Source of the DNA: a virus
Reading direction: 5' to 3' (one strand)
Virus record (IMG/VR): IMGVR_UViG_3300001097_000079
Span: 1-22,336 of that record
DNA length: 22,336 bases
Shown here: positions 4,096 to 22,336 of the stretch, piece after piece
Position numbering within the stretch: position 1 is the stretch's first letter
Layout of the letters: each line of letters begins with the position of its first letter
The notes under the pieces: model-generated
The model's database searches: none
What the model was told of the DNA's origin: nothing
Seen by the model: the letters and a program-made list of their open reading frames with translations, nothing else
Translations under genes and position numbers: made by a program

Positions 4096-5277
4096 CTAGA
4101 ATAAGTTAGCTGTTTTAATCTGAATTTCTTCATAAATCGAAGGGTCAAATTCTAATTCGGCACGAAGAATAACATATTTGTTTGGCACAGTGTCACAGGT
4201 TATCATACAAGTTTTATTGTCCTCAACAATAACAACATACTGATTGTTGCTACCATCTTCGTTTCTAATAGACCACGTAACGTTCTTCAGCATGTCGTCA
4301 ACACCGTTTTTCTTAGGTGTAGCATTATAAGTCAATGACGTAGTTACTTTGATAGAGCTATCGTCTGGTGTGATAGTAATAGAATATCCATCAACAAGAC
4401 TAATCATAGAATGTACGTTAATAACTGACATGGCATCCTTGTATTGAACCGTAACGGTTGCGTCACCTGTCCCTATTACTGTTACCAATCCCGCTGTATC
4501 TACTTCTATAATGTCTGTATCACTAGATATATATGCAAGAACCGGATTATCAATGACCACATCGTTTTCATCTACTAAGGTCTGAAGCTGCAATGTGGTG
4601 CTAGGGTATATCATGTTTACATGCTCACCGTTTAGAATTTCAACATTACGTGCAATTTGGTTACTATAATAGTTTGCTATTCCTAGTTCAATATTGTCAT
4701 CCTCAATTTTATTTGTCGTTTTTATCTTTATATTTATTAATTCCTTTTCCACAATGTCATCAATCCCAACAACCTCGTATAGTCGTTTATTAAGTACAAA
4801 CCTATCTCCTAAAACAATAGTATTTGTATTTATATTAGCCGGAATTGTTAATGTGAATTTATTATTTGCGGTGTCAATAAGAGTATTGTAGTCTAATCCA
4901 ATACTACCCGTGACTAATCCACCATTTCCAATAATGCAAGGTGTTTCTATTAAGACGAAATCATTATAAAATTTTAAGATATTATTACATTTTCTCATTT
5001 TTCCAGATAGAAAAAAGTCTCTATCCTCCGGCTCAAATATTATTAAATAATCAGAATCATCATAGGAAATCCTATCTCCCATTTTTATGATAATAACAGA
5101 TTTTTCTATTAAAATTATTGAGTCTATGTTTTTTTGCCATTCGTTAGCATCGTTAATAATGCCCTCATACTTGATAAAAGAATTATTAATATTTACATAG
5201 GCTTTTTCACACATGCTAAAAATAACTTCTTCATGGCTAGTAGTGTCAACATTAGTCCACTGTTTATAATCTTTCAT
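4096..5277 (-). CDS. Structural protein with Ig-like (Big_2) domain, 393 aa
   Basis: The start overlaps the end of the preceding gene. The frame could open at GTG 5286 followed by three ATG codons. AAAAGGTG gives the best spacing to the last of these, so I start at 5277 (MKDYKQWTNVD). Residues up to about 200 form a beta-rich region of unknown family, containing GDRISYDDSDYLIIFEPED and GDRFVLNKRLYEVVGIDDI, which suggests a connector or tail-completion fold. From about residue 215 there is a bacterial Ig-like domain: SSDTDIIEVDTAGLVTVIGTG followed by DATVTVQYKD is the classical Big_2 signature. A second beta-rich domain (SITITPDDSSIKVTTSLTYN and following) looks Ig-like too. Such domains usually decorate virion surfaces and bind carbohydrate or cell surfaces. 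Placement on a connector-region protein is unusual. Confidence 0.7.
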   Translation of the reverse strand: MKDYKQWTNVDTTSHEEVIFSMCEKAYVNINNSFIKYEGIINDANEWQKNIDSIILIEKSVIIIKMGDRISYDDSDYLIIFEPEDRDFFLSGKMRKCNNILKFYNDFVLIETPCIIGNGGLVTGSIGLDYNTLIDTANNKFTLTIPANINTNTIVLGDRFVLNKRLYEVVGIDDIVEKELINIKIKTTNKIEDDNIELGIANYYSNQIARNVEILNGEHVNMIYPSTTLQLQTLVDENDVVIDNPVLAYISSDTDIIEVDTAGLVTVIGTGDATVTVQYKDAMSVINVHSMISLVDGYSITITPDDSSIKVTTSLTYNATPKKNGVDDMLKNVTWSIRNEDGSNNQYVVIVEDNKTCMITCDTVPNKYVILRAELEFDPSIYEEIQIKTANLF

Positions 5278-5518
5278 CATCATCACCTTTTAAATATATG
5301 TTTGTAGGTATTCTGTTTACTAATCCAATTATATCAAACGTGGTAGAGTGTAACTCTTTATTATCTTTCAAACATACATCCCCCATTTCTTCAATTTGAT
5401 ATATAACTGAAAATATTTTGTTTATTATATTGCTACAGTAAATATTTACATCTAAATCTATTTCTTTAAACTCCCCAGTCTCTCTGTCTTTCACTGTGTT
5501 TTTTACATTGTAAGACAT
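5264..5518 (-). CDS. Unknown small phage protein, 84 aa
   Basis: The family is not recognised. ATG at 5518 follows the stop of the upstream gene by one base and has no clear Shine-Dalgarno sequence, so it is probably translated by coupling. The sequence is a short charged N-terminus (VKDRETGEFKEIDLDV), a helix (NIINKIFSVIYQIEEMG) and a polar C-terminus ending KGDDDERL. Its last codons overlap the start of the Big_2 protein gene. The overlap also provides that gene's ribosome binding site. A connector-region accessory role is possible from position. Confidence 0.65.
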   Translation of the reverse strand: MSYNVKNTVKDRETGEFKEIDLDVNIYCSNIINKIFSVIYQIEEMGDVCLKDNKELHSTTFDIIGLVNRIPTNIYLKGDDDERL

Positions 5519-5519
5519 A

Positions 5520-5966
5520 TTAATTAATTATCTTACTCAATACGTTTCTTGTATAGCTTCTGTTTAACTCAGTAGTAACCCTTGATAAACATTCTCTAAG
5601 TGCTACGATTTTTGATTGTAGTCCAAGCACATTTAGTTCAGATTTCTTATTGAACTGATTAGCTATTGCAAGCGATGTATTAAGCTCTCTTTCTAAATAA
5701 TTTTTGTATATTGTTCTTCCTAATATTTTAGTATGTGACCGTGGGATGTCTTCATTAATAACTTTAATTACTGTATTGTCTTCTAGTGTTTCCTCGCCTA
5801 TTGTCAGCTCAGTTTTTAAGTTCTCTTCATAGTCATAAAATGCCGATTGTAAATAAGATTCCACAATGTTATTTGTGGATATTACATCTAATTCGGGATG
5901 ATTATTTAAATCAATATTAGCTATTGAATAAAAAACATCATAAATATTTTCTAATGGAGTTTTCAT
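5520..5966 (-). CDS. Unknown phage protein in the connector region, 148 aa
   Basis: The family is not recognised. ATG at 5966 has a G-rich ribosome binding site (AGGGGGGG). The protein is mostly helical and polar, for example RTIYKNYLERELNTSLAIANQF and a long C-terminal helix ending RSYTRNVLSKIIN. There is no membrane segment. It follows the 171-aa gene by 10 nt and precedes the 84-aa gene by one base, so it is part of a tight operon between the major capsid gene and the tail genes. Head-tail connector (adaptor) proteins in this position are usually small and helical, so an adaptor is a reasonable guess but unproven. Confidence 0.65.
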   Translation of the reverse strand: MKTPLENIYDVFYSIANIDLNNHPELDVISTNNIVESYLQSAFYDYEENLKTELTIGEETLEDNTVIKVINEDIPRSHTKILGRTIYKNYLERELNTSLAIANQFNKKSELNVLGLQSKIVALRECLSRVTTELNRSYTRNVLSKIIN

Positions 5967-11099: not shown

Positions 11100-11901
11100 C
11101 TAACTGTATAAGAATATCAATTTGCGACCATCTTTTTTTACTTTATCTTCGAATGTTTTTATGTACCACAACCCGTACACAGTGGCACTGTATCTGTCTT
11201 TATCAACTCTTTTAGTTACCTGCTCAACTGTCAACCTTCCGGCTTGTAAATGTTTCAGCTTTAAATTAGCAACTTCCTCGATTAAAAAATCAGTTTGGAT
11301 GCTAGGAAGGACTATATTTTTAACATAGTCCTTATCATTTAAATCATAATTATTAGTTTGATTTTTCTCTAATAATTGTAATTTTCCGCTTTCAACCATA
11401 TCAATAAAATTTACAATTATTTCGGTATTAATACCTTGTGATTGTAGAGCGTATAGGCACTTTTTGGCTGTTTTGTCATCCGGTTCATCTTCAGTATTTA
11501 TTGTGTCCCAACATTCTAAAATATCGCTACTCTGAGGGTCGAATTGTTCTTTTAACAATTCATCTTTTAATCCCTGTCCAACACCGTTTGCATCAATGAT
11601 AGCGATTTTAGCATCGTACATTTTATATACTCTTTTAAGCTCTATGGCTTGACTTGTAAAATTTAAACCATTTGGCAGGTTGATTAGGTTGACAAGTTGC
11701 ACACTTATTAATCTATCTTCCTTATTTCTCTTTGCTTTTAATATTGAAATAGAACTCTGATTATTAGATGACTTATTTGAACGAGATACGTCCATAGAGA
11801 CATAGTAATCTGATTTTCCATCTCCTTTTAATTCGGGTGTGGTCAAGACTCTTAAATCCATTAATTTGTTAATATCTATAAGAGCATCTGCACAAGCTCC
11901 A
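11100..11901 (-). CDS. terL: Terminase large subunit, exon 2 (nuclease domain)
   Basis: This is the 3' part of the large terminase gene, joined to exon 1 by removal of the group I intron. Splicing at 11902/11901 gives TGG GT|T GGA GCT, that is, W-V-G-A-C-A-D-A-L-I-D-I-N-K-L, and keeps the frame to the TAG at 11100. The RNase H-like nuclease domain that cuts concatemeric DNA is here: YYVSMDVSRS (first Asp), KIAIIDANGVGQGLKDEL (second Asp) and KDRYSATVYGLWYI (third acidic site). An ATG at 11861 (MDLRVL) could look like a gene start but has no Shine-Dalgarno sequence, and it would leave the nuclease separate from the ATPase. After both splicing steps the mature protein would be about 573 aa, a normal size. 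Confidence 0.85.
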
Positions 11902-12188
11902 CGTTTACACCCCTACTTTCGTAGTATTTATTTAGGGACTAGACTATATCTTCACCTACATCTTTCATGTTTAGGTGTCTGGCACTTCGCAATAATGAAT
12001 TTCACATTAAAGCTACTCCCTTGCGGGATAGTCGTTGCACTTTTCTTATTTCTAAGACTTAGCACAGGATTGTCATTTCATTTCTGATTTAGAGTTCCCC
12101 TGTTAGCACGAAATTATATTCGCACACCCTACATTTGTAGGTTCACCAGATTTTAATTGTACATTTCTGCACAAAAGGGCTAATTAAA
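11902..12188 (-). ncRNA. Group I intron (IA2-like, td-related), no ORF
   Basis: A 287-nt group I intron interrupts the terminase gene. The 5' splice site follows exon GGGT (ending 12189), which pairs with the intron's GCCC guide (12180-12177) with a terminal U-G pair, just as in the T4 td intron. A GAAA-capped hairpin (GTGCA/TGTAC) follows. P4 is ACAGG with CCTGT (about 12103-12099 with 12068-12064). The conserved R element GTGCAACGACTATCCC and S element GAAGATATAGTC give a 6-bp P7 (12033-12028 with 11947-11942). The intron most likely ends at G 11902. Ending at G 11899 would also keep the frame. No homing endonuclease fits inside. Confidence 0.88.
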
Positions 12189-13975
12189 ACCCATTTACAT
12201 TCATAATTCATTGAGAAAAATATTGGAGACAGCCTATCTTTTTTATCTAATATCTGAGATTTTGTTTCTCCTCTATTGTATTCGCAAGCCAGTTCCCAAC
12301 TAGACCCTAAAACAATTTTGCCTTTTAGGTCAGCCATTTCATCAATCATTCCCAGATTTCTTTCAAATTCGTCCGAACCTCTGAAGCCGGATGTTGTAAA
12401 GAAATTAATTTGCCCGTTCACTTCCTCTGGGCTTATTAACGCTTCCTTACCTATTGTTCTTCTTGGAATATTGACAATTGGTTCAAGAGCATCTTCAAAT
12501 AGTGCATTGTTTAATAAATTAGACTCTTCAATATTCAAACGTTTTCTTCTTGACCCTTTGCTCGTTTGGGAATTGGCTAATATGTTTATTAACCCTCCAG
12601 AAATAAAAGAAACCATAGCACTATCTTTAACGAAACTGGATTTTACAATCTCATTTCCAAGTAAAGGATAGAATTTCACAATCTCTCTGTGCTTCTCTTC
12701 TAAAAGTTTTGAGGCGTTATCCTTAGTCTGAGCTGACATAGATACTTCAATGTCTGGGTAAAATATACAGACCAAATACATAGCAAGAATTTCTATAAAA
12801 GTGTTATGACTCACAAAACCATTAGAAACAAAACTATTAGTCTTAGGAAGAGATAAATCGTATACATGATTTTGACTATCAACTACACTTTTAACTTTAG
12901 AATAATAATAATCTGCACTACCCAATTCCAAAGAGGGATTAATTTCTCTTTCTGTTTTACACATCTCTATTAACTTGTTTTGTATCGCCTTATCACTAAA
13001 GCCTATCTCTCTTAAATACAAGCTCATATATTCTCTATCTATTTCTATAAAATATGAATATGAGATGTCATCTTGTTTAGTTATTTTATTTCTATCTGAG
13101 ACAATTCCGAAATTTAACAAAACCGTCTGAACCTGTTTTGATAATTTTTCAGAAGTGGTGCGGTATCTTATATAGGAATCAGAAATACTACATCCGGTAT
13201 TGAACAACCCCTGTATAAACTTTGAAACTGTATTTTTAGGAGATTCTAATATACATTTAGGAATTTCATTCTCAAACGCATCTCTAACATTTGTCCTAAT
13301 AAACTCATCTTCCTCAAGCTTTAAACAGGTTGATTTTCCCCAAACATTATTTCCCCTACTAATAACTAAATAGTCATCTTGACTAATATCTTCTGACTTT
13401 TTCCATTCGTGCTTTCCATCTTTACCAATGACAAGCAAGGGGTGATTTAAAGATGCTTCAATTTCAAATCCTTCTTCAGTAATTACCTTTTTGGTATCTT
13501 TGTATCCACTGTAGACTCCTGCGCTTGGAATTTCTAATTGATTGTACCTGTTCACTATCTTAACTTCTGGAATAGTAAAAGTTTCTTTATCATCAGATTG
13601 ATAATCAAAATACTCTCCAATTTCTTTAATACCTTCATCTGTTAGGATTAAAGTGTCGCCACTTACGCATTTTCCATATCCACGGGGAAATACCCCATAA
13701 ACAGAAGCGAATCTTGCTATACTTCTTAAAAATACCCTTTGGTCTAAATCTAATCTTATACTTCCGGTTTCTGGAGTTATTAAATCTATATACAAATCTG
13801 GATTCCATCTAGCCCAACTAATAAAATCAACATATTTGTCCATATTCTTAGTTAAACTATCGCCCTCTTTAGCACCTTTGCTTTTTACAGTTGCGTTAAA
13901 TTCGGGATTTTTTATATCTGACCTGTTCTTTTCATTCTTCATATTATCTGATTGAAAATTTCCATAACTACTCAT
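12189..13975 (-). CDS. terL: Terminase large subunit, exon 1 (ATPase domain, contains an intein)
   Basis: This is the 5' part of the packaging motor gene. ATG at 13975 overlaps the end of the zinc-finger gene by 8 nt. The ATPase P-loop FPRGYGK|TFIE is split by an intein (residues 103-391). After protein splicing it reads R-G-Y-G-K-T. A Walker B candidate is RLNIEES. A conserved ATPase end segment, INFFTTSGFRGSDEFERN, follows. The unspliced frame would read through the intron into a TGA near 12143, giving a truncated protein with a nonsense tail (VLISPFVQKCTIKIW). The complete protein needs both group I splicing and intein removal. Precursor length after RNA splicing is 862 aa, and mature length about 573 aa. 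The family call is confident. Confidence 0.9.
12803..13669 (-). mobile_element. Intein in the terminase Walker A loop (289 aa) with degenerate LAGLIDADG domain
   Basis: All splicing blocks are visible. Block A is CVSGDTLILTDEG with Cys103 as first residue. Block B is EIEASLNHPLLVI (N-x-x-H). Blocks F and G are HVYDLSLPKTNSFVSNGF and VSHN, with penultimate His390 and terminal Asn391. The +1 extein residue is Thr392, which is also the P-loop Thr. Between them lies an endonuclease-like region. Its first motif is FIQGLFNTGCSIS, where the LAGLIDADG consensus has G-L-F-D-A-D-G, so the catalytic Asp is replaced by Gly. The second motif (YMSLYLREIGFS) is hardly recognisable. The splicing part looks active and the homing part dead. 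Confidence 0.92.
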
Positions 13976-15436: not shown

Positions 15437-15456
15437 ATATATTATATTTTGACTAT
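15437..15456 (-). promoter_or_regulatory. Candidate phage promoter (recurring motif, copy b)
   Basis: The minus strand reads TAGTCAAAATATAATATATT, with TATAAT at 15446-15441 and no recognisable -35 box. It begins at the stop of the metallophosphoesterase gene and lies 45 nt upstream of the acidic gene. It shares CAAAATATAATA with the copy near 18631-18646. Confidence 0.45.
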
Positions 15457-16625
15457 TAAAAATTAATATCGTATGTTGCTATTACACCTTCATCAGTGCA
15501 AACGCCAACCAACTGCTGTGGTTTACCCAAAATTCTCTTTTCTATACAATAATCATCCATACCCATTAGTGAGCCGGACATCATTACCTTACGTCCTTGT
15601 ATCCAGTCTTGGAAGTTATGATGAAGATGTCCTAAAACTATCCCATGTACAGGTTCTTTTAATAAGTCTACCAGTTTAGAAATGCTTGAAACTCTATCAT
15701 AATCACCGTGAGCAAAGGCATAGTTTAGCCCTCTGATATCTACAAGTGTCATTGTAGAATCGATACCATTTTCTAGGACGCTGACATTCTTTATGTTTTG
15801 TAGCCTAGATTTAATATACCACGGAATTAAGATATCAAGTTTCTCATCTTTCAAAGAGTCGTTCTTATTTGTTATTCTGGAGTGGTTTCCTGCAATAACT
15901 ATAAGTTTCACTGTTTTAAAATGACCACTCAGCTCTTGTAGAAACCATGCAACCAACTCGGAGACTCCCATAACTTGCTGAATAATGTTTTCTTTGTTAG
16001 CAACTTGAATTGGTAAATGTATACTTCCCGAAATCAAATCACCATTTGCACAAACTACGCAATTTTCTGATTTATGTAATTGTTTAATACTGTAAATCTT
16101 ATCAAGATACTGCTCTAACCTCGCTTTTGCTATCTTTGAATTATACTTATTCCAATTATTATCAATATCAATACCATAATGAATATCATTCAAACCTATT
16201 AGTAAATCATTATCAGATTCATAAATTTCATAATCTGTATTCTTTTTATATGGCTCAAGCCTACCCACTTCTTCAATAATAATATCTTTTAATAAATCAA
16301 AACGTGCGGTTTCCCGTATGAGTTTAGTATAAGATGTTCTTTGGTCAAAAAATTTAATTTTTTCTTTTTCAAGCTCTATCCTTTTTAATTCATAACCTTT
16401 GATACGACCATCTCCCTCAAGGAAGGATTGTTCTGCATCATCTACACCTTCTGAATAAGCACGATACCATTTCCTATAAGTAGATTCGTTAAATCCATTG
16501 CCAGTTTCCTTATTGATTAAATCACATATCTCTTTTGCGGAAATGTCATATAGTTCTTTATTTTTGAATAGCCTAACTTTATATGGTTTAATATCTTCAT
16601 CCGCAAAGCGGTTCAGTTCTTCCAT
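15456..16625 (-). CDS. Metallophosphoesterase with N-terminal HTH-like domain, 389 aa
   Basis: This is a calcineurin-like metallophosphatase or nuclease. All two-metal motifs are visible: GLNDIHYGID (D147, H149), NGDLISG (D196), IAGNHSR (N247, H248), FAHGDYD and GHLHHN. The N-terminal 60 or so residues contain SAKEICDLINKETGNGFNES plus TYRKWYR, resembling the helix-turn-helix of terminase small subunits, followed by a long Lys/Glu helix (about 75-100). Related enzymes are SbcD/Mre11-like nucleases and phage phosphoesterases encoded near terminase genes; the substrate cannot be read from sequence. An in-frame ATG at 16640 precedes the best ribosome binding site (AAGGAG), so I start at 16625. 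It follows the beta-CASP gene closely, so the two are co-transcribed. Confidence 0.85.
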   Translation of the reverse strand: MEELNRFADEDIKPYKVRLFKNKELYDISAKEICDLINKETGNGFNESTYRKWYRAYSEGVDDAEQSFLEGDGRIKGYELKRIELEKEKIKFFDQRTSYTKLIRETARFDLLKDIIIEEVGRLEPYKKNTDYEIYESDNDLLIGLNDIHYGIDIDNNWNKYNSKIAKARLEQYLDKIYSIKQLHKSENCVVCANGDLISGSIHLPIQVANKENIIQQVMGVSELVAWFLQELSGHFKTVKLIVIAGNHSRITNKNDSLKDEKLDILIPWYIKSRLQNIKNVSVLENGIDSTMTLVDIRGLNYAFAHGDYDRVSSISKLVDLLKEPVHGIVLGHLHHNFQDWIQGRKVMMSGSLMGMDDYCIEKRILGKPQQLVGVCTDEGVIATYDINF

Positions 16626-16655
16626 TATTCTCTCCTTCATCCCTATTTTATATTA

Positions 16656-18077
16656 CTACACAGTGGCAGTCATGCCTTTTATTGTTGCTATTACTTTTGT
16701 TGTTTTATTCATTTTAGATATTTCGCCCTCCAGCAATTTTTTAAACTCCAGTTTCCCCTTCTCTTCTCCATGAACTAAATATATTTTATCTGTGTTTATA
16801 CTTTTCAAATAATTTAAAAGTTCTTTCTGTTGAATATGAGATGAGTAGCTCCCAAGCATCATGATTCCACATTTGTTTTTACGTGAGACTTTATCAATTG
16901 TAATGGTTTTCTGTCCACTTTTTATTTTGCCACCAATACTATTTGGAGGGCAATAGCCACATATAATAACACCATCGTTGTAGTTGCCAATATATTCTCC
17001 TAAATAATTAACAACTCTCCCTTTCTGGAGGAATCCTGAGCTGCTTAAAACAATTTTAGGGGATTTATCTATTACACATAACTGGCTCTCTTTATAATCT
17101 TTTATAAACCTTACATTCTTCCAATTACAGGCTTTTTCAAATAATTCTAAGTTTTCACCTTCTAGTACACTTTTATAAACTTTATTTATCTCCCATATTA
17201 GGGGAGAATCAACAATTACTGGTATTTTGAAATTCTCATCTCCCCCATAAAGGAGAAACAGGTCTGTAAGAATTTGCTGAGACCTTGATAGTGCAAAAAC
17301 TGGAATTAATATCCTACCTTTTTTAACATTGCAAATCTCATCAACGGCAACTTGTATTTTTTCTAAATCTTTTTCTCTATTTGGTTTAATTCCTTTAGCA
17401 GAACCTCCGTATGTTGATTCACTGATTACGATAGTTGTCTTTTTGCATTTTTCCAAATCACTTACATAATGATTTTTTGTTTGTGGACTTCCTAAGTCAC
17501 TTGTATAAAGAATCTTGTCAATATGTCCAGAAGCATTCTTAATAAACAGTTCTAATTGAAAAGCTCCAATAATATGAGAATTTTTTAAAAATTTAAAACT
17601 GATTTCTTCATCTAATTTATGAATTTCTCCGAATCTATAAGTTTCAGTTAAATCTATCATTCCATAAACATCTTCCTCGCTGTAATATGGGGAAACCGAC
17701 TTACCATATTTTTTTGTTAAATAGTCAGAATCTTTTCTTATAATCTTAGCAGAGTCAAGCCCCATTGGTTTCATTAAAGCTTTAGCGATATCTGTAGATA
17801 TAATCTTACCATTAAAACCGTCATGTACTAATTTGGGAATTAATCCACTATGGTCAATATGTGAATGATTGAGAAAAACGTAGTCAATACTCTTTGGCTT
17901 GAATGGAAATGACTTTGAGTTTTCTTTGAAGTCATCTAACTGATTAGATGATTGTGTCATTCCACACTCTAATAGTATCTTCTTAGTTGAGGTTTCGACT
18001 AAGTACATTGAGCCGGTAACTGATTTTGAAGCATTGCCTAAAAAACTAACTTTTACTTTGTCTTTTTTTTTACTCAT
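16656..18077 (-). CDS. Beta-CASP metallo-beta-lactamase-fold ribonuclease, 473 aa
   Basis: This protein belongs to the CPSF73/Ysh1-like beta-CASP family of zinc-dependent RNases that cut or trim RNA. Motifs in order: NHSHIDHSG (H71-x-H73-x-D75-H76), NSHIIGA (H168), YTSDLG (D194), ESTYGG (E220, motif A), SSSGFLQKGR (about 345-354), SYSSHIQQKEL (H414, motif B), and LVHGEEK (H436, motif C). All metal ligands are present, so it looks active. It lacks the archaeal KH domains and the RNase J C-terminal domain. ATG at 18077 has AAAGGA upstream. A promoter-like motif (18141-18160) precedes it, itself following a terminator, so this gene opens a new unit. It could process phage tRNA or mRNA, or host RNA. 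Confidence 0.87.
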   Translation of the reverse strand: MSKKKDKVKVSFLGNASKSVTGSMYLVETSTKKILLECGMTQSSNQLDDFKENSKSFPFKPKSIDYVFLNHSHIDHSGLIPKLVHDGFNGKIISTDIAKALMKPMGLDSAKIIRKDSDYLTKKYGKSVSPYYSEEDVYGMIDLTETYRFGEIHKLDEEISFKFLKNSHIIGAFQLELFIKNASGHIDKILYTSDLGSPQTKNHYVSDLEKCKKTTIVISESTYGGSAKGIKPNREKDLEKIQVAVDEICNVKKGRILIPVFALSRSQQILTDLFLLYGGDENFKIPVIVDSPLIWEINKVYKSVLEGENLELFEKACNWKNVRFIKDYKESQLCVIDKSPKIVLSSSGFLQKGRVVNYLGEYIGNYNDGVIICGYCPPNSIGGKIKSGQKTITIDKVSRKNKCGIMMLGSYSSHIQQKELLNYLKSINTDKIYLVHGEEKGKLEFKKLLEGEISKMNKTTKVIATIKGMTATV

Positions 18078-18140
18078 TTTTTAATCCTTTACTTTTCTAT
18101 TTTAACTAGCATGGGTTTATTCGTACAGGATATAGATTCA

Positions 18141-18160
18141 TTATATTATATTTTAACTAC
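18141..18160 (-). promoter_or_regulatory. Candidate phage promoter (recurring motif, copy c)
   Basis: The minus strand reads GTAGTTAAAATATAATATAA, with TATAAT at 18150-18145. It begins two bases after the terminator's T-run and lies 64 nt before the beta-CASP gene, exactly where a promoter for that unit would be. No -35 consensus is present. Confidence 0.5.
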
Positions 18161-18161
18161 T

Positions 18162-18197
18162 AAAAAAGAAGATACGTTTTATAAACAACGCACCTTC
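18162..18197 (-). terminator. Strong terminator after the tRNA unit
   Basis: On the minus strand GAAGGTGCGTT (18197-18187) pairs along its full 11 bp, including two G-U pairs, with AACGTATCTTC (18178-18168) across an 8-nt loop, followed by TTTTTT. It ends transcription from the tRNA region. Confidence 0.85.
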
Positions 18198-18342
18198 TGA
18201 TATTACTGATATTATTAATATACTAACCCCAAAAATACGAGCGCTGTCACGAGAGATGGCTCAGAAAAACTATAAAGGTTAGTTGGTAATTTTTGTTCTA
18301 CGGTTGGGCTTTCCCCTACGCACCTGTTAGCTTCGCAGGATT

Positions 18343-18418
18343 TGGTGTCTATAATAGGATTCGAACCTATACTGGACGGATTTTAAGTCCGTTACCTCTG
18401 CCGTTGGGCTATATAGAC
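18343..18418 (-). tRNA. tRNA-Leu(UAA)-like, short variable loop, CCA encoded
   Basis: A 76-nt cloverleaf can be drawn. The acceptor stem is GTCTATA/TATAGAC (7 bp), the anticodon stem ACGGA/TCCGT with loop CTTAAAA (anticodon UAA, reading UUA), the T arm ATAGG-TTCGAAT-CCTAT, discriminator A, and encoded CCA. The variable loop is only 5 nt (CCAGT), although bacterial tRNA-Leu normally has a long variable arm. The D stem (GCCC/AGGT) has one mismatch and one G-U pair. The UUA codon is very common in these genes, which fits a supplementary tRNA, but charging by the host leucyl-tRNA synthetase is uncertain. Confidence 0.85.
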
Positions 18419-18634
18419 ATAATTAGGTCGTGTTAAAAAACCTGTCAACTTAATGCATATGCAGATAAAACTCACACGGTAGTACATTTGTTTTTTTCAC
18501 ATTGAATTTTCATCGTTTACACTCTAAAAGGATATTTTCTTGCTAGAGGATGAGCTACTGGGCTGTGAATCACCACGCCTAACCGTCATTAGGTTCTTGG
18601 TTATATAAGCGGTTTCCCGAATGTATGCATCGTA
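18419..18634 (-). other. Non-coding leader between the 52-aa gene and the tRNA
   Basis: I see no gene here. The minus strand holds a 5-bp hairpin, CCTAA-TGACGG-TTAGG, and GC-richer segments (CACAGCCCAGTAGCTC) that stand out from the AT-rich background, so a structured RNA is possible. A 13-codon ORF (MKIQCEKNKCTTV) has only a weak ribosome binding site and is not claimed. Confidence 0.4.
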
Positions 18635-18650
18635 TTATATTTTGTTATTT
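18631..18650 (-). promoter_or_regulatory. Weak copy of the recurring promoter-like motif (copy d)
   Basis: The minus strand reads AAATAACAAAATATAATACG, sharing CAAAATATAATA with copy b. It overlaps the end of the 52-aa gene and lies about 215 nt upstream of the tRNA. It may drive the tRNA unit, or may be chance in AT-rich coding sequence. Confidence 0.25.
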
Positions 18651-18793
18651 GCCTTTATTTTTTTAGAATGTGTTGAGGTGGCAAAATTTACATTATATAC
18701 AGTTATTTTCCAATCTTGCCATTTAGACACAATTTCATTTATAATATATGTATATTCTTGTGAGTGTTTTTCATTATTTGCTTTATTAGTCAT
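18635..18793 (-). CDS. Unknown micro-protein, 52 aa
   Basis: The start is ATG at 18793 with a strong ribosome binding site (GTAGGAGGG, 5-6 nt spacer). The protein begins MTNKANNEKHSQEYTYIINE and is polar with a short amphipathic part containing two Trp (SKWQDWKITVYNVNF) and a basic C-terminus (HSKKIKANNKI). No family is recognised. There is no signal peptide or membrane segment. The overlapping plus-strand frame (18621-18932) has no ribosome binding site and is treated as a shadow. This is one of a run of micro-genes between the RNA polymerase and the tRNA. Confidence 0.65.
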   Translation of the reverse strand: MTNKANNEKHSQEYTYIINEIVSKWQDWKITVYNVNFATSTHSKKIKANNKI

Positions 18794-18928
18794 AATTACC
18801 CTCCTACACATCCTAAGCTTACTAATTCATTTTAACCTACTTAAAGTTATATTACTAACTTGTGAGTTAAACCCACGAATCAGCCAAATTGCCGATAAAT
18901 ATCATTCCAAATCACTTATAAAAACTAT

Positions 18929-18952
18929 TTAATCTGCTTCATCGATTATCAT
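18929..18952 (-). CDS. Seven-codon leader ORF (possible upstream ORF)
   Basis: AAGGAG with a 6-nt spacer precedes ATG at 18952, but the frame encodes only MIIDEAD before TAA. The ribosome binding site is as good as those of real genes here. It could be a leader peptide for the 52-aa gene downstream, or a decayed gene start. Confidence 0.25.
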   Translation of the reverse strand: MIIDEAD

Positions 18953-18980
18953 AAGTTCTCCTTGCCATAATAGTATCTTT

Positions 18981-19136
18981 TTATAACATCCACTGTTTCC
19001 CGATTTTTACAGACCATTTAAACAAACCAATATATATATATAATTCGCCTTCTCCATAAAATAGCATTATTCCAAGGTTACCCGTTCCATCTTGGCTTGT
19101 TGTTTCAACTCCAACTTTTAAGTTTAATTCTTCCAT
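18981..19136 (-). CDS. Unknown micro-protein, 51 aa
   Basis: The start is ATG at 19136 with ribosome binding site GAAGGGG about 7 nt upstream. The protein begins MEELNLKVGVETTSQDGTGN and continues LGIMLFYGEGELYIYIGLFK, ending WSVKIGKQWML. The alternating hydrophobic pattern suggests a small beta-sheet protein. There is no Cys pair, signal peptide or clear transmembrane helix. The family is not recognised. It follows a short frameshifted-looking ORF (19167-19248) and precedes the leader ORF and the 52-aa gene. Confidence 0.65.
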   Translation of the reverse strand: MEELNLKVGVETTSQDGTGNLGIMLFYGEGELYIYIGLFKWSVKIGKQWML

Positions 19137-19166
19137 TGTATTTCCCCTTCTTTTTTTATTTAGAAG

Positions 19167-19248
19167 TCATCTGGTTAGGTATGTAATTTTCACTATCGCC
19201 TTACCATTGTCATACCAACCCCCATTTAGACATTGGACAAATATTCAT
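19167..19248 (-). pseudogene. Possible frameshifted micro-gene (about 26 aa)
   Basis: ATG at 19248 follows a G-rich ribosome binding site (GGGGGTGG) and reads MNICPMSKWGLV before a stop. Removing one base of the five-G run would continue it as WGWYDNGKAIVKITYLTR to a TGA at 19167. The second frame looks protein-like but has no start of its own. The explanation could be a real frameshift mutation, a sequencing indel in the homopolymer, or chance, since the ORF is very short. Confidence 0.25.
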
Positions 19249-19311
19249 AATCCACCCCCAAAATAATTAGAGAATGGTGTATATTATCCTCCTCTCAGAT
19301 GTTGTTTATGC

Positions 19312-19401
19312 CTATTCTGTCTTACTTGGGTAAATAAAACCTGTTATTATTTGATATTCTTCTTCCGTTATAGCTTTTTCAACAATATTCCACCACCGCA
19401 T
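19312..19401 (-). CDS. 29-aa ORF, probably the -1 frame extension of the 46-aa ORF
   Basis: The frame reads MRWWNIVEKAITEEEYQIIT and then GFIYPSKTE. The ITEEEYxxITG phrase resembles the XkdX family of tiny phage proteins found near tail and lysis genes. The ATG at 19401 lacks a ribosome binding site. It lies in the -1 frame relative to the 46-aa ORF (19368-19508) and is reached by a -1 slip at T-TTA-AAA (19410-19404), which would give a fused 65-aa product. Confidence 0.4.
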   Translation of the reverse strand: MRWWNIVEKAITEEEYQIITGFIYPSKTE

Positions 19402-19508
19402 TGTTTTAAATAACCGCTATTTTCCACTTCTGTGAGAGGTGTTAGCGGTACTGTTGTTTTTCTATAGGGCAGATTATTTAATTCGCCATCTGCCAGAGCA
19501 TTATTCAT
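19368..19508 (-). CDS. Unknown micro-protein, 46 aa (frameshift partner)
   Basis: ATG at 19508 opens a frame reading MNNALADGELNNLPYRKTTV, then PLTPLTEVENSGYLKQCGGG, ending ILLKKL. The first 35 codons look like a real polar protein. The last 11 are less convincing and overlap the 29-aa ORF in another frame. No Shine-Dalgarno sequence precedes the ATG, although the start region holds a 7-bp hairpin (GGCAGAT/ATCTGCC) that could matter for translation. A -1 shift at the slippery heptamer TTTAAAA (19410-19404) would replace the tail by an XkdX-like end. Whether the shift is programmed, a mutation or an error cannot be told from sequence. Confidence 0.4.
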   Translation of the reverse strand: MNNALADGELNNLPYRKTTVPLTPLTEVENSGYLKQCGGGILLKKL

Positions 19509-19711
19509 TCAAACCGATAATTTAGTACGCCATTCAGTAGGCGTTTGAGTAGTGTAGGAGTTTTAATAATTATGCTTTGCATAAAACTTTAAAAAACTGT
19601 ATTACTACTCATATACAAGAAAGATAGAAGCTCATTTTTACCCCCTACACCCCTTGTAATTAGAGGGTTTGAGACTTCAAGTTTTGACAAAAAAAGCCGC
19701 TAAACCGCATT
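19509..19711 (-). other. Gene-free stretch after the RNA polymerase gene
   Basis: About 200 nt follow the polymerase stop. They contain a GCGG-TTTA-GCGGC element ahead of seven T (not a proper hairpin), an 8-codon ORF (MSFYLSCI, 19609-19635) with a G-rich ribosome binding site, and a long imperfect palindrome at 19547-19610. I see no convincing gene. The palindrome suggests regulation or a replication or processing site. Confidence 0.5.
19547..19610. repeat. 64-nt imperfect palindrome
   Basis: Outer arms GAGTAGT and ACTACTC (7 bp) enclose inner arms with AGTTTT/AAAACT and a TTATGC-TTT-GCATAA hairpin core (plus-strand reading). The structure can form on either strand. The outer arm also occurs in the terminator stem at 1686-1711. 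Confidence 0.55.
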
Positions 19712-22336
19712 TTAACTGTTTTTTATATCTTCTCTTGTCATTTTAACATATTCAACACCGAATATATTATAGTCAAAAGCCCCTTGAGATTTCACAAGAA
19801 ATTCATCCAAACCCGTACTATCACTCTTGAAACACTTTATAACTTGAACCCTCTTTGATGAGTATAATAAATTTAAAGTCAGCATAGCATATTTTTTAAA
19901 TCCAAATTTATCATTCTCTTTAGTAGTAAAACACTGTTTGAGAATATACAATATAGTTTTATCGTTTAGGTATAACTCCTTCAATTTAATTATAGCCTCT
20001 ATCTTTACCTTTTTCTCAACTGTCTTTTTCCCCTGTGACCCTAATGTACAGTTTTTCGTTCTCAATCCATTTATTGCCTTTCCACAAACCTCAACCATGT
20101 CATAGATGTTCTGAGCACTTTTGTATCTACTCGTTCCTTCTATGTCTTTTGATTTAATTAGCAGCTCTCCAAAACCTATATTCTTACTACCTTTTAAATA
20201 GTTACTATTTTTAAATGTTAGAACATCTTGTAAAATATCGAGAGGGGTATTAAACGTTTCAAAAATTCTATACTCATTGAAATCTGATATCATCCCAAAG
20301 AATTTTGGTACTATCATCTTCCTTGCTATCTGCCCGTACTTATCTTTCTCTTCTATGTATCTTAAATAGTCAATCTTTCTCATCTTACTCAGCTCTTTAC
20401 TCATACTCACATTGTCAAACACCTTTTTACTTTTATCAATTTCTATTTGACTCATACTTGATAGCCGGCTGCTTGCATTATATAACTCATCTATAATATA
20501 TTGACCCTCACTTTTTGAGATAGCATCGTTCATATACGAGTTTATTATCTGTGACATATTGACTATTCTTCCTATGTAATTATCACTTAGAATAATATCT
20601 AATTTCTGTAGCTCTCGCATATTATATTTTCTTAATTTCGAATCACCCTCTACTCGATTTAAGGGAGTGGGAAAGTTTTTTTCACAATACTTTGCATGTT
20701 TCACCAATATTGGATGTGGTAGTAATAAATTTGTGTCGCTGTCTGTATCCTCCCCCTGTAACCTATCTGGCATATCATTATCATAGAAATTTACAATCAT
20801 AATATTGTCAGTAAAGTTAAACCAATCATATTCACTTTGGAGCACATTCTTACTATACATTACATTACCAGAATTAATATGTGGGTTTCTGGAAACACAG
20901 AACTCTTGCCCATCATCATAATATTGACAAAATACTTCACGACCTTGCATGATAGAGTTCCCCTTATACTTTCCTATTGAATGTTGCAACATTTCGTAGG
21001 GATTTGATATAATAGTTACATATTTAGCATCTTTTATCCGTATTTTCCCTCTTTTAAGATGTCCTATATAGTTTGAAATCAAATCACTTTTTATCTTTTT
21101 AAACTTTGTTGTGTATTGAATATCTGGATTTACAAATAATAAAGCATTCATTAACTCCATATTCTCATACAACTCTTCATCGCCTTTGCCAAAGTCCTCA
21201 TCCACTATTAATTTACTTTCTCCCTCTCCACAGAAGTAGTTTCTAAACACAGAGATGTCATTCTTTAGTAGCATTACATAATCTCTCTCAAGTTCTGTAA
21301 TGTCCATTAGGTCATCATAGGTTAACGTGGGCATGCTATTCAAAAGCTGATATGTGCTCCTATTATAGTCTCCATAGTTTCCGGTTTTATCACACTTCAC
21401 TACACCGAACATTGAATCTATGCTGTCCTGCCAATATTGGTAGCAACCTTTTTTGCTTCCATCTCCTATTTTGTAAGCGAACTTTAAAAACTTCAAAGAG
21501 TTAGGTGTAATGATTAGTTTTATCTTCTTAGCGTCATACTCAGTCCCGAACATGTCGGTTAATGTAGAAACGCTATTATGCTCAAACCACTTTTGTAATT
21601 TAGTATTGAATGCACAGTCTTTGAACATATCACTACGCAACAGCATAAAACCTTTATCTGTTTTCTTGTATTCTTCAAAAACTGATTCGTCCATTAGCCC
21701 CTGTCCATCTGTTAGGCAGTTTCTAATAGTTACTACTTCACTATTTGTAATTAATTCTCCACCTTCCTCTTTTGTCACACTTGCTAGACTAGAAAATTCT
21801 TCTCCGTAGATATCATCAATCAATAAAATCTCAGTCTTAGGGTCTAGGTTAATTGTAAATTCAATTCCAGATGAGATTAAAGACTCATAAGCCAATAGAC
21901 CTGTTAAATCTAATTCCTCATCTTTTTCAAATTTAAGTCCTAATCTACTCCTGTCTAGCAATATGTCTCTCATGTCTTCCTGTATGTAAAATGCATACCC
22001 ATTCTTAGCTTTACCTGCCCCTCTCTTATAGAATATATAGTGCACTCCATCCATATCAAAACCATTTACATATAGGTATTTTCTTATCTTTTTCTTATTG
22101 GCAATTGCAACTCGCTTTCCAGTTTTTTCTTCCCCCTCTTTGCTTATCCATTCTTTTTCCTCATCCCATTTGGTATAGTTCTTCTCAAACGTAATGTTGA
22201 TAATTTTCCTTGTGTACTGCTTGTTTTTCACGGAATAGAATGCATCAGAGAACATTTTATTGAGTCTTATCGTTTCTAGGCTGTAAGGTACAGTAGCCGA
22301 AAACAGCTTTGATAAGTCTCTGTTCTTATATGTTGT
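19712..22336 (-). CDS. YonO/RdRP-like single-chain two-barrel RNA polymerase, 5'-truncated by the window edge
   Basis: At least 874 residues of a large enzyme are visible. The Met at 22255 has no Shine-Dalgarno sequence, and the frame stays open upstream to 22336 (TTYKNRDLSKLFSATVPYS), so the true start lies outside. Near residue 500 (counted from that Met) is RLQGEDTDSDTNLL, a D-x-D-x-D triad matching the Mg-binding DxDGD of two-double-psi-barrel RNA polymerases (SPbeta YonO, QDE-1-type RdRPs), with Ser in place of Gly. Upstream lie DGQGLMDE with FMLLRSDMFKDC (first-barrel region) and CVSRNPHINSGNV, matching the R-N-P-x-x-x-x-G-(N/D) motif before the catalytic loop. Proteins of this family transcribe phage DNA independently of host RNA polymerase. 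The family call is inferred from motifs and would be settled by a profile search. Confidence 0.75.
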   Translation of the reverse strand, partial: TTYKNRDLSKLFSATVPYSLETIRLNKMFSDAFYSVKNKQYTRKIINITFEKNYTKWDEEKEWISKEGEEKTGKRVAIANKKKIRKYLYVNGFDMDGVHYIFYKRGAGKAKNGYAFYIQEDMRDILLDRSRLGLKFEKDEELDLTGLLAYESLISSGIEFTINLDPKTEILLIDDIYGEEFSSLASVTKEEGGELITNSEVVTIRNCLTDGQGLMDESVFEEYKKTDKGFMLLRSDMFKDCAFNTKLQKWFEHNSVSTLTDMFGTEYDAKKIKLIITPNSLKFLKFAYKIGDGSKKGCYQYWQDSIDSMFGVVKCDKTGNYGDYNRSTYQLLNSMPTLTYDDLMDITELERDYVMLLKNDISVFRNYFCGEGESKLIVDEDFGKGDEELYENMELMNALLFVNPDIQYTTKFKKIKSDLISNYIGHLKRGKIRIKDAKYVTIISNPYEMLQHSIGKYKGNSIMQGREVFCQYYDDGQEFCVSRNPHINSGNVMYSKNVLQSEYDWFNFTDNIMIVNFYDNDMPDRLQGEDTDSDTNLLLPHPILVKHAKYCEKNFPTPLNRVEGDSKLRKYNMRELQKLDIILSDNYIGRIVNMSQIINSYMNDAISKSEGQYIIDELYNASSRLSSMSQIEIDKSKKVFDNVSMSKELSKMRKIDYLRYIEEKDKYGQIARKMIVPKFFGMISDFNEYRIFETFNTPLDILQDVLTFKNSNYLKGSKNIGFGELLIKSKDIEGTSRYKSAQNIYDMVEVCGKAINGLRTKNCTLGSQGKKTVEKKVKIEAIIKLKELYLNDKTILYILKQCFTTKENDKFGFKKYAMLTLNLLYSSKRVQVIKCFKSDSTGLDEFLVKSQGAFDYNIFGVEYVKMTREDIKNS

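Follow-up and report, generated by a model that had tools for sequence, protein, structure and literature searches.

The first minus-strand gene of the window, by which we mean the whole 22,336-base virus record IMGVR_UViG_3300001097_000079, encodes what we judge, at a probability of roughly 80%, to be a single-chain, DNA-dependent RNA polymerase (RNAP) of the YonO type that would transcribe the late operon of the phage. The direct observations behind this reading are a predicted two-barrel fold, homology to YonO, invariant aspartates and basic residues, and a conserved gene order. The open reading frame comprises 874 codons and extends beyond the window edge on its 5' side, the N-terminus being cut by the end of the contig, and the first ATG lies at 22255. 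In four relatives (L010, L012, L015 and L017) the frame starts about 18-25 codons ahead of the first or second residue of the window protein, and most of the protein is therefore present. The earlier note on this DNA, made from its letters alone, had proposed recovering the missing upstream part; its length can be estimated from these relatives and the segment itself lies beyond the contig end. The same note had described an open reading frame here with a D-T-D-S-D active site, and both the frame and the motif (codons 20749-20735) were present on the minus strand. D-T-D-S-D was the sole match of a degenerate form of the motif in the 22,336-base record and a reversed control pattern gave 0 matches. 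The coordinates of the features discussed below are collected in Table 1.

Table 1. Features of the window and of related loci. Coordinates refer to the window unless a locus is given.
Feature	Coordinates	Strand	Basis or remark
Single-chain two-barrel RNA polymerase (YonO-like, DxDSD clade)	19712-22336	minus	ORF, PHROG, model, hhalign
Predicted DPBB-A (= DPBB2 of QDE-1), residues ~433-541	20714-21040	minus	Bears the aspartates; designed-barrel alignment
Predicted DPBB-B (= DPBB1 of QDE-1), residues ~158-317	21386-21865	minus	Segment model and VIA
Catalytic triad D530-T-D532-S533-D534	20735-20749	minus	Matches the YonO-group DxDGD column in the alignment
R483-N-P-H486 signature	20879-20890	minus	Within DPBB-A, upstream of the triad
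Bridge-helix-like N586-x-IG-x-I-x-N593-x-SQ and E632-I-D-K helices	20426-20581	minus	After DPBB-A
Box TCTTGTATATG	19610-19620	minus	~90 nt past the RNAP stop; counterpart of the relatives' element; lead only
Stretch of 1.6 kb without a long minus-strand ORF	18078-19711	minus	Between RNAP and late genes
tRNA-Leu(taa)	18343-18418		Within the 1.6-kb gap
Beta-CASP metallo-beta-lactamase nuclease	16656-18077	minus	Beside RNAP
YonJ-like calcineurin-type exonuclease	15456-16640	minus	28% to SPBc2 YonJ, E=1e-34; phrog_284 exonuclease, E=2.6e-61
Two-hairpin RNA	L170 8593-8659; L024 10735-10802; L025 6895-6962; L084 13325-13391		Also in L027, L028 and L030

The relationship to YonO was assessed at several levels of sequence comparison. 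The window protein matched phrog_8308, annotated 'unknown function', at E=2e-89, and this PHROG was also matched by six proteins of the YonO group, with SPBc2 YonO first. A single BLASTP comparison of the window protein with SPBc2 YonO gave 21% identity at E=7e-8, and an HMM built from 44 members of the window's clade scored SPBc2 YonO at 80 bits. Aligning the clade with the YonO group using hhalign resulted in Prob 100 and E=1e-54 over 711 columns, with DTDSD placed beneath DNDGD. The window protein alone gave no Pfam match up to E=0.1. By sequence comparison the window protein is a homologue of SPbeta YonO, with both barrels covered.

Querying PDB sequences with either the window protein or the 44-row profile returned chance matches only, and a fold search was therefore needed. 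An AlphaFold model made with the alignment of 44 sequences as input had a pLDDT of 87.8 and a pTM of 0.83. Foldseek against the PDB gave 21 matches at E<=0.001, every one a QDE-1 or RDR2 chain. With VIA, 13 QDE-1/RDR2 entries scored Z 21.1-26.6 and a fourteenth 15.1, with nearly the whole chain aligned (for example 2j7n_A, Z 22.7, rmsd 4.0 A over 630 residues, and 7w82, Z 26.6, rmsd 7.9 A over 605 residues). Other single-chain phage RNAPs ranked next at Z 11-15, with P32 gp64 and P74 gp62 at about 15; the crAss phage phi14:2 RNAP (6vr4) scored 8.6, and matches to multi-subunit RNAPs were limited to parts of the catalytic region.

The two barrels were located separately. The designed double-psi barrels 7dww and 7di0 aligned to residues 436-541/542 of the model with an rmsd of 2.0 A and Z 8.1-8.2, placing the barrel that bears the aspartates. 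Residues 78-345 modelled alone had a pLDDT of 83.8, and the top 13 VIA rows for this segment were RDR2 and QDE-1 chains at Z 6.2-8.4, matched in their DPBB1-bearing region (e.g. QDE-1 557-789). The next rows, at Z <5, were mostly other proteins with double-psi folds, among them expansins, formate-dehydrogenase-type enzymes and p97 N-domains, and Foldseek gave no match for the segment at E<=0.001 (best E 0.24). In QDE-1 itself DPBB1 spans 690-792 and DPBB2 916-1018, with catalytic D1007, D1009 and D1011 (PMC1750930). The models indicate that the window RNAP carries two double-psi barrels on one chain, with support for the second barrel being modest when it is isolated. The two-barrel polymerase of YonO/QDE-1 type proposed in the earlier note is borne out by these folds and by the YonO homology; that note had named a fold lacking two double-psi barrels, or best matches outside the polymerases, as evidence to the contrary, and both barrels were found and the best fold matches listed by Foldseek and VIA were to polymerases only.

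Because the nearest solved folds are QDE-1 and RDR2, because several depositors name relatives 'RNA dependent RNA polymerase' and because the Pfam RdRP model (PF05183) matched 7 of the 44 alignment members (best E=4.5e-8), the enzyme could instead be an RNA-templated polymerase that copies phage or host RNA and is functionally nearer to QDE-1 than to YonO. We consider this improbable, as the closest characterised phage relative, YonO, is described as a DNA-dependent RNAP (PMC5467207) and the gene order presented below fits late transcription. According to their entry titles, QDE-1 structures exist with DNA and with RNA templates, and the fold thus does not decide the template.

The catalytic motif and its flanking signatures were strongly conserved. 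In the alignment of 44 relatives D530, D532, S533 and D534 were invariant, as were R483, P485 and H486 of the first signature (its R and P are invariant in the YonO-group alignment too) and R234, K239, K282 and K314 of DPBB-B. The N586...SQ and E632-I-D-K signatures were invariant or nearly so, are helical in the AlphaFold model and have counterparts in YonO (IG..SN and ID.AK); the label 'bridge helix' for the N586 helix is given by position. A chance occurrence of the motif was ruled out, since the motif and its flanking signatures are invariant or nearly invariant across the 44 sequences. In the proposed mechanism D530, D532 and D534 in DPBB-A would hold the catalytic magnesium following the two-metal mechanism of the superfamily, the basic residues of DPBB-B would assist the reaction as their counterparts do in QDE-1 and cellular RNAPs, and S533 would lie in the metal loop between the second and third aspartate.

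Viral contigs were scanned with a three-sequence alignment, which confirmed 108 relatives of which 80 were kept, and a scan of bacterial genomes confirmed 171, of which 80 were also kept. Neither scan used the DxDSD motif as a pattern. Scanning the viral contigs with a single sequence found no relatives and neither did a scan with the PMBT24 protein. The resulting 160 loci include near copies (75 + 79 distinct sequences, the 75 also counting five annotated phage records) and many members come from fragmentary or metagenomic contigs. Named hosts in the genome scan were mostly Clostridia and other Firmicutes, with Anaerovorax sp. IOR16 and Clostridium tagluense among those whose contigs carry relatives, and single MAGs labelled Desulfobacterales, WWE3 and Bacteroidales may be binning errors. 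Large and abundant, the DxDSD branch occurs in both phages and prophages, with Clostridia and related Firmicutes as hosts. The earlier note had suggested a divergent branch of a kind with few described members; the separate branch stood, but with this many viral and genomic loci it is not rare. YonO-like proteins in Firmicutes prophages and genomes are mentioned in PMC5467207, and a search of the open-licence literature found no polymerase paper on the motif DFDSD, a scope within which the clade cannot be called undescribed in print.

At the fourth motif position the 160 relatives had 159 Ser, one Ala (L152, DFDAD) and no Gly, and at 157 of the 160 loci D-x-D-S-D lay in an open frame of 400 or more codons. 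In L127 a stop cuts the frame that reads DYDSD, L089 reads FDSD after a break behind the first Asp, and the motif stretch of L035 reads DADMDSD. Gly was found in the YonO group (D-x-D-G-D in 39 of 40 loci, with L215 unread) and in outgroups (DFDGD in PMBT24, TR-TP1 and MT835651; DYDGD in MT836002). BUCT082 (L171), an SPbeta-type phage whose RNAP belongs to another branch within the wider YonO group, has DFDYD, and the phi14:2 ORF gp077, taken as the 6vr4 chain from its length, reads DFDID. Given this Tyr and Ile, and since the literature, as far as the sources cited here go, defines the triad as DxDxD, Gly is not defining for YonO-like RNAPs. The earlier observation that the usual Gly is replaced by Ser therefore holds for the window and its clade, but Gly is common rather than universal.

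That Ser could be an isolated oddity or stem from sequencing error was ruled out by the 159 of 160 loci and by the use of both Ser codon families. In a tree of 60 rows built with the motif columns omitted, one branch (SH-aLRT 100) split 46 DSD/DAD rows from 14 DGD/DYD rows, and three changes account for all states. This was a quick tree in which long branches meet at the DSD/DGD split, and a single origin of the Ser clade is thus likely, not proven. Of the 46 rows, 10 encode the Ser with AGY and 35 with TCN. The two codon families were exchanged at least 8 times, and six other conserved Ser columns showed a similar number (6-11). As each AGY/TCN switch needs two base changes and the count is like that of other conserved Ser columns, Ser itself appears to be under selection. 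Its near-total fixation indicates that S533 is compatible with catalysis in the clade and does not mark a broken active site; it is probably tuned for catalysis there. The prevalence of Gly in the YonO group and in the DFDGD and DYDGD outgroups could mean that Ser marks a weakened or repurposed enzyme, e.g. an RNA- or DNA-binding regulator, which we regard as very improbable with the three aspartates and the basic residues invariant and Ser maintained by selection. An inactive enzyme is also unlikely because residues other than Gly occur in related enzymes, one of which has reported activity: phi14:2 has DFDID, yet its virion RNAP is reported to be active in vitro (PMC10136315).

Gene order was assessed in the window and in its relatives. 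Downstream of the RNAP and on the same strand, the window has a gap with tRNA-Leu, the beta-CASP nuclease, the YonJ-like nuclease, terminase, portal (phrog_2739) and virion proteins. In the 80 viral (IMG/VR) loci, 74 of which have >5 kb downstream, a same-strand YonJ-type nuclease followed the RNAP in 52, a YonN-type HU gene in 42 and the C-terminal part of terminase in 19; none of the three was found upstream of the RNAP in any of the 80. Of these loci, 11 have a beta-CASP nuclease downstream of the RNAP gene and on its strand. Counts were lower in the 80 genome loci, of which 51 have >5 kb downstream (nuclease 13, HU 16, terminase C-terminal part 4). L012 has helicases upstream of the RNAP and terminase and portal downstream. 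In SPbeta the order is yonO-yonN(HU)-yonK-yonJ. There YonO is reported to transcribe the late genes, starting upstream of yonK at a promoter that the study did not define (PMC5467207). By synteny the 1.6-kb gap of the window, in which no HU gene was recognised, would be the place of the SPbeta late start site. The terminase gene of the window (11100-13975, minus strand) also contains an intein (PF14890 and LAGLIDADG, ~12803-13648) at a Walker-A-like GYGK and a group I intron (RF00028, 11922-12198) that sets off a C-terminal exon.

The gene order of the window is as would be expected for a late-gene polymerase. Host RNA polymerase would read the early genes, and the phage RNAP would be made next and would then read a late unit starting just downstream of its own gene and comprising nuclease, terminase, portal, head and tail genes. 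Members of the same superfamily are packaged in phi14:2 and P23-45 (PMC10770324, PMC10136315), and the window enzyme might likewise be a virion-packaged RNAP injected with the DNA for early genes, like that of phi14:2 or P23-45 gp96. This seems to us quite improbable, as YonO, its nearest characterised relative, transcribes late genes (PMC5467207) and the gene is a free ORF ahead of the packaging genes. In relatives it was also a free ORF, usually of ~850-1,050 codons, and none of these ORFs was seen fused to a tail or structural protein. Each of eight records searched held one RNAP gene, two partial matches in six of the eight being pieces of one gene.

A candidate regulatory element was found directly after the RNAP gene. 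It consists, in the subclade that includes the window, of an inverted repeat (AAACC...GGTTT) followed by TTCCTTGTATATGRTATA, and lies mostly 36-142 nt past the RNAP stop, or 790-830 nt past it where another ORF intervenes. The window keeps only the box TCTTGTATATG of this two-box element and the full two-box profile misses the window site. The 16 element sites were picked before a leave-one-out profile test, in which the site ranked first on its strand in 12 of the 16 loci, clearly so in 11 of those 12 (scores >=21.9 versus <=12.2 elsewhere on the strand) with a near tie in L092; the L012 site ranked second, and L010, L011 and the window failed. The box-B pattern with two mismatches occurred in whole records about as frequently as a reversed control, and no counterpart of the element was seen in 14 YonO-group loci. 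The element could serve as promoter, operator or terminator, and we do not claim it as a promoter. We also considered a T7-like TATAGGGAGA start sequence after the RNAP gene but dropped it, since with two mismatches it occurred at 36 of 117 loci versus a shuffled mean of 22.8 and a shuffled maximum of 33; it was also undercut by the enrichment of a Shine-Dalgarno-like AAAAGGAG at the same place.

A bolder reading, which we hold to be rather unlikely, is that the clade forms a separate line of phage RNAPs in which the fixed Gly-to-Ser change makes catalysis differ from that of YonO, whether in metal geometry or in the choice of substrate or template, and which in the window's subclade uses its own late promoter, the inverted repeat with TTCCTTGTATATGRTATA, directly behind the gene. 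The clade maintains a natural, long-kept variant of a catalytic loop that is conserved in other respects. It includes many complete homologues and has a candidate promoter element at a defined place, which opens both the function of the loop residue and the recognition of promoters to direct testing.

Other features were observed in and around the RNAP genes of relatives. Many SPbeta-group phages have a 67-nt two-hairpin RNA downstream of the RNAP (between yonN and yonK in SPbeta), as do 6 of 92 loci searched besides the window, and five of its pairs have changes on both sides. In none of five loci searched did an Rfam match at E<=0.1 overlap it, and it was absent from the window (best E=1.1). 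BUCT082 retains this RNA despite its other-branch RNAP. Known structured RNAs near the RNAP of relatives included ROOL, RAGATH-18, skipping-rope and HEARO (L004 8424-9021 and 10421-10481; L013, L015 and L017; L030 5074-5278). The RNAP frame was broken in or beside the DxDxD codons in L004 (4275-5003) and L089 (9288-9649) and at the ORF ends of L008, L009 and L173, as if mobile introns target the catalytic motif. An Rfam group I intron was confirmed in L004 only (5276-5525, just behind the motif exon), and breaks at the same motif are noted in crAss zeta phages (PMC7886860).

Two-barrel single-chain phage RNAPs are already known from YonO, P23-45 and phi14:2. QDE-1 (Neurospora, Thielavia) and plant RDR2 share both DPBBs with the window RNAP and are its closest solved folds, but they are eukaryotic RNA-silencing enzymes with 10-14% identity whose N-terminal parts are unmatched. 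P23-45 gp96, P32 gp64 and P74 gp62 are likewise single-chain two-barrel phage RNAPs, with no sequence similarity to the window RNAP found; P32 gp64 and P74 gp62 are smaller (592-595 residues) and P23-45 gp96 is fused to the tape measure. The phi14:2 virion RNAP resembles the window RNAP in its two barrels and non-Gly motif residue, and differs in being a 2,166-residue virion protein for early genes of a phage with a Bacteroidota host. YonO of SPbeta/SPBc2 differs in the low identity given above, in its DNDGD motif and in being shorter than the DSD clade by one or two residues right before the motif. It shares with the window RNAP a single chain of similar length, the aspartate triad, the R-x-P-H, IG..SN and ID.AK signatures, the same PHROG and a YonJ-type nuclease downstream.
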